DNA of 64,000 nucleotides from Candidatus Micrarchaeota archaeon CG1_02_47_40 (GTDB lineage: Archaea > Micrarchaeota > Micrarchaeia > Anstonellales > CG1-02-47-40). The notes below the pieces were generated by a model, which saw nothing but the letters and a program-made list of their open reading frames with translations, searched no databases and was not told the origin of the DNA. This document shows, piece after piece, positions 6,114 through 41,418 of the stretch. Numbering within the stretch: position 1 is the stretch's first letter; the number at the start of each line of letters is the position of its first letter. Position numbers and translations under genes: made by a program. The stretch is taken from assembly GCA_001871475.1 (NCBI GenBank), contig MNVE01000002.1, positions 1-64,000 of the forward strand. Reading direction: 5' to 3'.

Positions 6114-6140
6114 AAAAATTAAATGGGCCGGGAGAGATTT

Positions 6141-6177
6141 TTGAGCCGCCAATTTTCCAAAAAGGAAAATTTCGCGA
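6141..6177 (-). other. tRNA-Ile intron 2 (T-loop, 56/57)
   Basis: A 37-nt intron interrupts the T-loop after TTC. The bulge-helix-bulge consists of exon GAGT paired with intron GCTC (one G-U), 5' bulge TC^T and 3' bulge AA^A, with an inner CGC/GCG helix. Above this is a strong hairpin (ATTTTCC with GGAAAAT). Removal restores the conserved TTCAAAT loop with A58. Confidence 0.88.
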
Positions 6178-6196
6178 GAACTCTCGACCTTTCGAT

Positions 6197-6219
6197 GTCC
6201 GAAAGACCGCTGAAACGTT
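6197..6219 (-). other. tRNA-Ile intron 1 (canonical 37/38 site)
   Basis: A bulge-helix-bulge can be drawn. Exon CTGA (positions 32-35) pairs with intron TCGG (one G-U). The 5' bulge is TA^A and the 3' bulge is AC^A, each cut two nucleotides in. The anticodon stem supplies the outer helix. The intron is 23 nt. Confidence 0.85.
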
Positions 6220-6289
6220 TATCAGTCGAACGCTCCAACCAGGCTAAGCTACCGGCCCAATCATGTATTTTAATTGTACAAAAGCAGAA

Positions 6290-28475: not shown

Positions 28476-28596
28476 TTCTTTTTTTGAGTGAAACCTATAT
28501 TTCTTTTTGGGGATGAAGAGCTCCAGCACAACGTCCTTTTCTTTTTTGGAGTGAAACCCTTAGAACCTTTTTTCTTTTTGGAAAAGAAAAAAGGTT
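28476..28596. repeat. Direct repeats and a perfect 15-bp inverted repeat
   Basis: A TTTTCTTTTTTxGAGTGAAACC unit occurs twice, near 28482-28503 and 28535-28558. A third, partial T-rich copy forms one arm of a perfect palindrome: 28564-28578 (AACCTTTTTTCTTTT) pairs with 28582-28596 around TGG. The array lies between two genes on the plus strand. The hairpin with T-rich arms could act as a terminator. Confidence 0.7.
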
Positions 28597-28668
28597 ATAT
28601 GGGGTCGGACTTCTACCCCCTGCTCTCTTTTTAAAGCGCCCGCTCCGTCCTTCTCATCGGTGATTGAA

Positions 28669-38062: not shown

Positions 38063-41000
38063 TTAGCTGGAAGGCTCCTTGGAAAGCCTCTCAAACTCAG
38101 CATCAATTTCCTTTGAAATATCCTCAAACTCATTCAGCTTTGCCTCAACTATCTCCTTTGCCCTTCCGATTTTCTCCCGCACTTTCATCTTCTGCACTGC
38201 CTTGATGCCCGCGCCAAGCTCAATCGCATCCATCGCCTTGTGATGGAATTTGAGTATGTTCCTTAACATCAGGTACTGTTTTTTCATCCCCGAATATGTG
38301 TCAATCTCGTGGTATGCGGACTGCTGCAAAAAGTCCTCCCTTATCATTTTAGTCGCATCCAGTACTGCCTGCTCCTTTTCAGGCAGCGCATCAGGCCCGA
38401 CAAGCTGCACTATTTCCTGCAGCTCCGCCTCCTTTTGCAAAAGCGCCATCGACTCCCTTCTTAATTCCACCCAGTCGCTTGAAATGTGCTCCGCGTACCA
38501 TCCGTCAAGATTTTCAGTGTAGAGAGAATAGGAGCGTAGCCAGTGGAATGCGGGAAAGTGCCGCCTCTGCGCAAGTGACGCATCAAGCGCCAGGAACACT
38601 TTCGTCACGCGCAGAGTGTTCTGCGAAACCGGCTCGTTAATATCCCCTCCCGGGGGCGATACTGCGCCAATAACAGTAATGGAGCCATGCCTCTTCTCCG
38701 AGCCAAGGCACTGCACCCTTCCCGCCCGCTCATAAAATTCCGCCAATCTGCGCGCAAGGTATGCAGGATATCCCTCCTCTCCGGGCATTTCTTCCAGCCT
38801 TCCCCCAATCTCTCTCATCGCCTCTGCCCAGCGCGAGGTGGAGTCAGCCATAAGCGCAACATCATACCCCATATCCCTGTAGTATTCTGCAATGGTAATA
38901 CCAGTGTAAACCGATGCCTCCCTTGCGGCTACGGGCATGTTTGAGGTGTTTGCTATAAGCACCGTCCTTTCCATGAGGGGTTTTTTTGTTTTTGGGTCTT
39001 CCAGTTTGGGAAATTCGGTAAGCACTTCCGTCATCTCATTGCCGCGCTCGCCGCATCCCACATACACCACAATCTGCGTGTCGCTCCACTTTGCGAACTG
39101 GTGCTGCGTGACTGTATTGTGCAAAAGCAACCCTCCGTCCCCCCCTACAAAATTTTCAATTCCCGGCACGGAAACATCAAAAACTTCAAAAGGGCCGTTG
39201 ATTTCATTAATTGCGATTATTTCATCACAGTAAATGTACTCAAGGGCATTGGCAAGTTTCAGAATTTCCTGCGCCTGCACTTGATTTCCGCACTTTACGC
39301 AAACAAGCTCTGCAAATCTCCTGAAAATCTTTGCGCCCATTCTTTCCTTTCCGCTTATGTAATTGTGGATTTCTATTCCCGCCTTTTTCAATTCGTTATA
39401 TTTTACTCCGCTGTTCTTGTATAACGCATTTACCACTCCAGCATCCAGACTCACTGTGTCCGTTGCCGAATAAGAAGCATCCTTTGATTCAACATACTTC
39501 CTTATTCTGGCTATTTTTTCATATCCTTCGCCTTCAAGCGCCTCATACAGCCTCTGCAGGTTTTCCCTTCCTCTTGCGAATATCCTGTAATGCTCTTTTC
39601 CGTTTATCTCCCTCCTGCTTATGCTGTTGAGCACTCCGAACCTGGAAAGCGCGTATGAAATCTGCGTTTTAAGCTCACTGCTTGCGGTTGAAAATTCCGC
39701 CTCCCCGCCATAAAAAGAGCCGTCCCCAAGAAAGAAACCCTTCAGAAACGCGCCAACGCACTTATTGCCTGATGCAAGAACTCTTTGCGGAATTCTCTTT
39801 GTGCATGCATTCTTCCCAATCTCAAGCATTTCTACAAATTTTGCAAGAATGCCGCTCATAACCAGGGCGTTAGGGGTTTTTCCTGCCTGTTTTTCAATTT
39901 TTGCCTCCAATCCAAACACTTCCTTTGAAAGAGCCATGAACCTTCCAAGACGCTCCTCATCACTATTCGTAAACACCAGCGTCCTGCCTCCGCGCACATA
40001 ACCCTCCGCGCAGAACAGCCCCAAAAATTCAGCCATCGCGGGGGTCATCTTTTCAGGAATGCAAAAAGGAGCGCCCCGTCTTTCGCCTCTAAGTATTTTA
40101 GGCTGCGGCAGGGGCTTTTTCATTTTTGAATAAACTTCCTTCACCCATTTTAATTTGGGAAGGCAGGATTTCTTTCTTGTCAGGCTGTGCAGGGTCATTT
40201 CCGCAATGTCAAGTGCGATATTTTCCCTGCGTGCCTCCCTTATCAGCTGTGCAAGCTCTCCTCTAATTTCCTCATCTATCACCCTTGCCTCTTCCATGCG
40301 ATAAGCGTCAATTCCAGCATCATCATTTTCAACGCCAATTTTTCTTATCGCAACAAGGCTTTCGCCTTTTTTGAGGCAGCCCGCTTTCGTTTCTGCCATC
40401 TTTCCGTCCGTGCCGACGCTAAACAAGCGGTGGACAGGAGTAACTTTCACGCTTCTGCCGCTCCTTGTCTTTATCTCAATCAGGGAATCGCTCATCCCCT
40501 TATAAAAACTTGTGCTTATGCTTTTTTTCAGCTTTCCATTCTCAAGAGAATACAATCCAATCGGCTTATTCAGCGAAATAAACTCTTCATTGATTCCGTT
40601 TTCAACAAAACCGTTTCTGCACGCCCACTCATAAATCTCTCTCATTGTTTTAAGGGAGCCGTCGGCAAGCATGACGGGCGTGTCCCCACAGACGCATTTT
40701 CCGCTCCCAAAAGGTCCCGGCACGCAGGCAGTCCCCCCTTTTGCAATCGGAAAGAACATATCCACAATCCTTTGCCCGGTAATTAAGGGTATGTTCGGGT
40801 CCATTTTTTCATTATACTCGCGCGGCTTTCTTACAGACCAGCGCTGCAGCATGCAAATTTCATGCGTTTTCTTCCCGTCACTTATTTTCGCAACCATTTC
40901 CTCAACGGTGTATTTTCCCTTTCTTATTTTCGCCACCCTGCCGGAAACCGGCGCCATCACCCGATGCTCAATCACGCTCGTTTCCTTCACCGTCCCTATA

Positions 41001-41398
41001 ATATCCCCGCGCTTTACTTTTGCGCCTTCCTTCACTTTCGGCACAAAATCCCATTTTCTTTTCCTATCCAGCGCGCTCACCGCAATGCCGCGCGCAATGA
41101 ATGCGCTTTTGCTCTTTTTTGCAATCTGCTCAAGCGGCCGCTGTATCCCGTCGTAAATCGAAGTCAACAGCCCAGGCCCAAGCTCCACGGAAAGCGGCTC
41201 GTGCGTGTTTTTGACAGGCTCGCCCGGCATCAGTCCGCTTGTATCCTCATACACCTGGATGGTGGAATATTTCCCTTCCATCTTGATTATCTCACCCATC
41301 AGCTCCTCTTTCCCTACCTTCACCAGGTCGTACATTTTCGCACCTTCAACATCCCGTGCAACTACGACGGGGCCGCTGACTTTGTAAATTTCTCCCAT
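38063..41398 (-). CDS. atpA: A-type ATP synthase subunit A, intein-containing precursor
   Basis: The catalytic subunit, translated as a precursor of about 1,111 residues. A 527-residue intein splits the P-loop: GPFGSGK is followed by the intein, then TVTQHQFAKWSDTQIVVYVGCGERGNEM. The spliced protein of about 584 residues is normal for the family, with the A-specific bulge domain (about 115-190). ATG 41398 has GAGGTG six bases upstream; a GTG three codons earlier is the alternative. Splicing is needed to rebuild the ATP-binding loop, so ATP synthase activity depends on it. Confidence 0.97.
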   Translation of the reverse strand: MGEIYKVSGPVVVARDVEGAKMYDLVKVGKEELMGEIIKMEGKYSTIQVYEDTSGLMPGEPVKNTHEPLSVELGPGLLTSIYDGIQRPLEQIAKKSKSAFIARGIAVSALDRKRKWDFVPKVKEGAKVKRGDIIGTVKETSVIEHRVMAPVSGRVAKIRKGKYTVEEMVAKISDGKKTHEICMLQRWSVRKPREYNEKMDPNIPLITGQRIVDMFFPIAKGGTACVPGPFGSGKCVCGDTPVMLADGSLKTMREIYEWACRNGFVENGINEEFISLNKPIGLYSLENGKLKKSISTSFYKGMSDSLIEIKTRSGRSVKVTPVHRLFSVGTDGKMAETKAGCLKKGESLVAIRKIGVENDDAGIDAYRMEEARVIDEEIRGELAQLIREARRENIALDIAEMTLHSLTRKKSCLPKLKWVKEVYSKMKKPLPQPKILRGERRGAPFCIPEKMTPAMAEFLGLFCAEGYVRGGRTLVFTNSDEERLGRFMALSKEVFGLEAKIEKQAGKTPNALVMSGILAKFVEMLEIGKNACTKRIPQRVLASGNKCVGAFLKGFFLGDGSFYGGEAEFSTASSELKTQISYALSRFGVLNSISRREINGKEHYRIFARGRENLQRLYEALEGEGYEKIARIRKYVESKDASYSATDTVSLDAGVVNALYKNSGVKYNELKKAGIEIHNYISGKERMGAKIFRRFAELVCVKCGNQVQAQEILKLANALEYIYCDEIIAINEINGPFEVFDVSVPGIENFVGGDGGLLLHNTVTQHQFAKWSDTQIVVYVGCGERGNEMTEVLTEFPKLEDPKTKKPLMERTVLIANTSNMPVAAREASVYTGITIAEYYRDMGYDVALMADSTSRWAEAMREIGGRLEEMPGEEGYPAYLARRLAEFYERAGRVQCLGSEKRHGSITVIGAVSPPGGDINEPVSQNTLRVTKVFLALDASLAQRRHFPAFHWLRSYSLYTENLDGWYAEHISSDWVELRRESMALLQKEAELQEIVQLVGPDALPEKEQAVLDATKMIREDFLQQSAYHEIDTYSGMKKQYLMLRNILKFHHKAMDAIELGAGIKAVQKMKVREKIGRAKEIVEAKLNEFEDISKEIDAEFERLSKEPSS
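39116..40696 (-). mobile_element. Intein in atpA with LAGLIDADG endonuclease
   Basis: It starts with Cys (CVCGDTPVMLADG), carries the TPVHRLF block B motif, and ends VFDVSVPGIENFVGGDGGLLLHN before Thr. The penultimate His, terminal Asn and +1 Thr are intact, so splicing should work. The endonuclease motifs LGLFCAEGYV and LKGFFLGDGSF each keep the acidic residue, suggesting active homing. Insertion after the P-loop Lys is a known VMA intein site in archaea. Confidence 0.95.
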
Positions 41399-41418
41399 TT
41401 TTTTCACCTCTAGAAATG

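Follow-up and report, generated by a model that had tools for sequence, protein, structure and literature searches.

A tRNA-Ile(GAU) gene with two putative archaeal introns, one in the T-loop, in a Micrarchaeota genome whose tRNA genes carry many T-loop introns

The minus strand at positions 6124-6258 of the window, by which we mean the whole 64,000-nt stretch of DNA analysed here, holds a tRNA gene interrupted in both its anticodon loop and its T-loop. Introns of the T-loop tend to be recorded as isolated curiosities, chiefly of Thermoproteales. The first-pass annotation had read the locus as a tRNA-Ile(GAT) gene with two introns, and this reading held: Rfam cmscan matched the strand to the tRNA model (40.4 bits, cut-off 29, E = 4.3e-5) with two inserts, one in the anticodon loop and one in the T-loop, and homologues without introns were found. 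ARAGORN reported zero tRNAs in the window, as is expected of a gene with introns outside the anticodon loop.

The gene lies in the interior of a 206-kb contig, and its parts were delimited on the minus strand by the Rfam tRNA model and by homologues. Exon 1 (nt 1-37; 6220-6258) holds the acceptor 5' strand, the D-arm and the anticodon arm to A37, and agrees at every position with its uninterrupted counterpart in G003, which belongs to the same order and to another family. A 23-nt intron that is missing from two intronless homologues (6197-6219; L025 and L026) separates it from exon 2 (nt 38-56; 6178-6196), and a 37-nt intron in the T-loop (6141-6177) separates exon 2 from exon 3 (nt 57-73; 6124-6140), which carries AAAU, the T-stem 3' strand, the acceptor 3' strand and the discriminator A. 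Removal of both introns restores a standard tRNA, as with other archaeal bulge-helix-bulge (BHB) introns; the predicted 75-nt consensus form proved identical to the G003 gene at 75/75 positions, and it is 99% identical to the gene in G052. Because the match is to an uninterrupted homologue, it sets the T-loop intron uniquely at 56/57, the site claimed before, with no splicing motif assumed. The sequence allows 37/38 or 38/39 for the anticodon intron (a 1-nt ambiguity), and the motif places it at 37/38. A second intact tRNA-Ile(GAU) gene, named in advance as a finding that would count against this reading, was looked for and not found in the assembly, a metagenome-assembled genome (MAG) that is 93% complete.

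BHB motifs with 4-bp central helices had been proposed for both introns; the central helices stood, and the complete hBHBh' form did not. In the T-loop intron, GAGU at nt 51-54 pairs with GCUC of the intron, the 5' bulge consists of U55, C56 and the first intron nucleotide, and an inner helix CGC/GCG follows; a 4-bp central helix joined in register by a 3-bp inner one arises with P = 0.003 under intron shuffling. In the anticodon intron, as read from the sequence, CUGA (32-35) forms a 4-bp helix with UCGG that includes one U-G pair, and the anticodon stem is the outer helix. Both introns have a 3-nt bulge and a 4-bp central helix at their junctions, and neither has both flanking helices of the strict motif: the anticodon intron is hBH, having no inner helix, and the T-loop intron is HBh', its outer helix missing because the outer T-stem pairs are displaced. 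Both forms are recognised sub-types of the wider BHB family and known substrates of epsilon2 endonucleases (PMC6379350, PMC4033280). In its minimum-energy fold, the unspliced RNA pairs the anticodon-intron region otherwise than in the motif; this, like the lack of an outer helix in one motif and of an inner helix in the other, counts against the explanation that we prefer below.

The T-loop intron belongs to a 56/57 class (class A, 34-46 nt) seen at many tRNA genes of this Micrarchaeota order. In this genome it is found in Ile(GAU), Ala(CGC, GGC, UGC), Gly(CCC, GCC), Glu(UUC, CUC), Lys(CUU), Ser(GCU, GGA) and Leu(CAG, UAA). For the first ten analysed, a set that leaves out Ser(GGA) and both Leu genes, 98.6% of the pair cells were formed in the 4+3-bp motif, with 27-50% paired in controls with slid partners, and the covariation score was 0.66 vs 0.25 for shuffled introns (0/500 shuffles). 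Exon and intron change together, from GAGU:GCUC in Ile to AGGU:GCCU in Ser and GGGU:GCCC in the others. Of the 84 genomes of the order, 17 have the class A pattern, the present one being the richest (11 matches; next highest 4), and the reversed pattern gave one chance match in total. Among 27 further cases, the inner helix was at least 3 bp in 23, vs 1.8 expected.

An Rfam search detected 11 tRNAs in the 93%-complete genome vs 28, 41 and 44 in three relatives; since the genome search with RF00005 misses tRNA-Ile(GAU) and most other genes, 11 was not taken as a gene count. Instead, a custom model that spans the D-arm and anticodon arm and ignores the T-arm picked up many of those that had been missed, and their 3' halves were read by eye for introns in targeted stretches. 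T-loop introns at 56/57, 58/59 or 59/60 were seen in about 32 of the 40 genes found, a set collected in part with T-loop or repeat patterns, and in 25 of the 32 genes detected with the Rfam model or scoring among the stronger matches to the T-arm-blind model. Pro(GGG) has a further intron in the T-arm, which is not counted among the roughly 32 of the larger set. Altogether 39/40 genes are interrupted, Gln(UUG) being the sole intron-free one, and we counted ~53 introns, where Pyrobaculum calidifontis has 71 introns in 46 tRNA genes (PMC8450103). Because the standard model finds 11 tRNAs here vs 28-44 in relatives, DPANN genomes apparently short of tRNAs may have hidden ones.

Several other interruptions were noted in this set. 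D-loop introns occur in three tRNA-Val genes (L017/L104, L100, L105), and the intron of tRNA-Arg(UCU) (L098) lies in the anticodon stem. After removal of the anticodon intron, the gene at G000:C15:153203-153288 (L093) and one in G001 (L150) have the anticodon UAU, apparently of a tRNA-Ile(UAU). The same tRNA-Cys gene appears at two contig ends, the start of C11 and the end of C16 (L168, L169), and these contigs probably join.

The T-loop introns at the other two sites, mostly longer than class A, have exactly four base pairs and leave a standard T-loop at 58/59 or 59/60. The helix is of the type GUUC:GAAC at 58/59 and UUCR:YGAA at 59/60; Leu(GAG) is among the genes read in this way. In Asp, Gly(UCC) and Trp, no 4-bp helix was found at any site yielding a standard T-loop. 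In G001, from the same family, about ten tRNA introns lie in the T-loop, six with the full 4-bp helix (five at 59/60, one at 58/59) and four with 3 bp only.

The tRNA-Ile locus itself is syntenic in G001, where the flanking proteins are 45% and 76% identical, the anticodon intron is kept and the T-loop is intact (TTCAAAT). None of the ~30 relatives whose tRNA-Ile was read has a T-loop intron in this gene: the gene either has an anticodon intron and an intact T-loop or is intron-free, and TTCAAAT is uninterrupted in all of them. We rejected an ancient T-loop intron in tRNA-Ile for this reason. As no relative read carries the intron, its recent gain in this lineage would be the simplest reading of the comparison.

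A splicing endonuclease of relaxed specificity, which the first-pass annotation had deduced, is supported by the gene content. The genome encodes a single three-unit chain of 395 aa, close to the ~390 aa of the epsilon2 type, whose residues 6-395 align with the ARMAN-2 enzyme 4FZ2 (E = 6e-136; 54% identity over the full length). All residues checked are conserved: Y160/K161 of the ARMAN-specific loop (ASL), the catalytic Y236/H251/K282 and the recognition pair R275/W384. Its named relatives are nearly all from Micrarchaeota, Burarchaeum included. Cleavage of relaxed motifs is reported for epsilon2 enzymes (PMC6379350, PMC12397907, PMC4033280), and from homology and from the introns of this genome we infer that the present enzyme may likewise have a broad substrate specificity. 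A gene for the RtcB ligase is also present. The RtcB match is split inside one 981-aa frame (G000:C6:15163-17979) by an intein-sized insert, which suggests an intein in RtcB. An intein with a LAGLIDADG domain interrupts the V/A-type ATPase subunit A encoded in the window (38063-41407, minus strand).

We consider it highly probable that the locus is a functional tRNA-Ile(GAU) gene, probably the only one, whose two inserts are archaeal tRNA introns spliced out by proteins. Boundaries, motifs, covariation, enzyme genes and the absence of the T-loop intron in the syntenic orthologue come from sequence, and from them we infer cleavage, ligation and expression. The pre-tRNA-Ile would fold into a relaxed BHB motif around each intron; each 3-nt bulge would be cleaved after its second nucleotide by the epsilon2-type endonuclease, and RtcB would join the exons into the 75-nt tRNA. 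The T-loop intron would have to be removed before the T-arm folds, because it pairs with the 3' side of the 5' strand of the T-stem (nt 51-54).

The gene could instead be a pseudogene that the T-loop insertion disabled, with decoding left to a further Ile(GAU) gene that escaped the search; at 93% completeness a copy may be missing. However, an intact homologue in another family matches the exons exactly, splicing motifs are present at both introns, and similar inserts sit in most tRNA genes of this genome, so that we hold a pseudogene to be very unlikely. Nothing was found in favour of a retained insert, with the functional tRNA keeping an extended T-loop, and we hold this too to be very unlikely: the covarying pairs with T-stem residues 51-54 are incompatible with folding of the T-arm as long as the insert is there, and the orthologues have a standard TTCAAAT loop. 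An artefact of assembly or binning, or a chance insertion of repeat sequence, deserves thought in a MAG with some tRNA genes at contig ends (the Cys gene on two). Yet this gene lies inside a 206-kb contig with synteny conserved in G001, and 16 further genomes of the order carry this intron class, which makes such an origin very improbable.

Many of the 58/59 and 59/60 introns are copies of one structured element, class B, with the layout CCCAUAW-[hairpin]-(CU)AAGGG-YUUCACYCC followed by a second hairpin. Its core, RAGGNYTTCACYCC, has 15 copies in this genome and 0 in the reversed control; about half sit inside tRNA introns, two follow closely after tRNA genes, and the others are dispersed. One intergenic copy lies in the window (28537-28603, core 28548-28561, minus strand); elsewhere in this genome the repeat acts as an intron of tRNA genes, in the T-loop or at the anticodon. 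The core was not found in G001; class B makes up the T-loop intron of tRNA-Phe in G010, while in G006 a tRNA has it inserted in the anticodon loop, and it had no match to known RNA in Rfam. Between Thr(UGU) and Asn, the copies are 92.5% identical and the tRNA bodies 76%. Introns more alike than their host tRNA bodies, as in the transposed introns of Thermoproteales, suggest intron transposition of class B; this bears on class B and not on class A, to which the tRNA-Ile intron belongs.

Other class B copies were also noted. A shared GC-rich stretch with the pattern GGGNAGAAGTCCGACCC, which is possibly part of a small RNA gene, precedes three intergenic copies (L162, G000:C4 at ~95.4 kb; L174, G000:C15:44600-44950; and the window at ~28.6 kb, minus strand). 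At L162 (G000:C4:95420-95500) the core occurs three times in tandem within 80 nt. At L176 (G000:C11:108150-108500), class B is flanked by two coding segments that resemble each other, and it appears to break up the first in the manner of an insertion. Class B-like elements in G014 adjoin tRNA-Pro and tRNA-Ile genes downstream, not inside (L157, G014:C5; L159, G014:C52).

One tentative proposal, which we put at somewhat under even chances, is that class B is a mobile structured repeat, an actively spreading, self-erasing tRNA intron that is met together with its intergenic copies in one genome. Insertions into the T- and anticodon loops of tRNAs would do little harm, since the ends of the repeat would supply relaxed BHB motifs on which the epsilon2 endonuclease can act. 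As a dispersed repeat, class B is a candidate for an intermediate stage in the spread of tRNA introns, itself an open question, and, if the proposal is true, it would give a direct route to test the gain of archaeal tRNA introns.

A single tRNA with introns at 37/38 and 56/57 is of a kind already known, since tRNA-Pro(UGG) of Pyrobaculum islandicum has introns at 25/26, at the canonical site and at 56/57 (PMC4090602). What we rate as new within this known kind is, first, an intron load centred on the T-loop in a member of the Micrarchaeota that has an epsilon2 endonuclease, about four fifths of its tRNA genes having T-loop introns at three fixed sites with 4-bp helices, and, second, the use of a dispersed repeat as an intron. 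No prior report of such a load or of a repeat as intron was found in the literature searched, which took in few subscription papers. The likeness to P. islandicum tRNA-Pro extends to the relaxed, non-canonical BHB-type motifs and to a canonical and a 56/57 intron in one tRNA; the host here is a member of the DPANN with an epsilon2 enzyme rather than the crenarchaeal (alpha-beta)2 form, and T-loop sites dominate its whole tRNA set. The predicted endonuclease resembles that of ARMAN-2 (Ca. Micrarchaeum acidiphilum; PDB 4FZ2, 9W2K; PMC12397907, PMC6379350) as a full-length three-unit homologue that keeps the Tyr/Lys of the ASL and the catalytic residues. Near-alike introns in unrelated tRNAs and rapid gain recall the intron transposition of Thermoproteales (PMC4090602, PMC4033280), whereas class B belongs to another phylum, is a multi-hairpin repeat found also between genes and beside tRNA genes, and is inserted mostly in T-loops. 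In the Asgard groups Atabeyarchaeia and Freyarchaeia, 92-95% of the tRNA genes have introns, often non-canonical (PMC11291895); the present genome is similar in that nearly all of its tRNA genes are interrupted, many by more than one intron, and differs in how large a share of them is interrupted in the T-loop.
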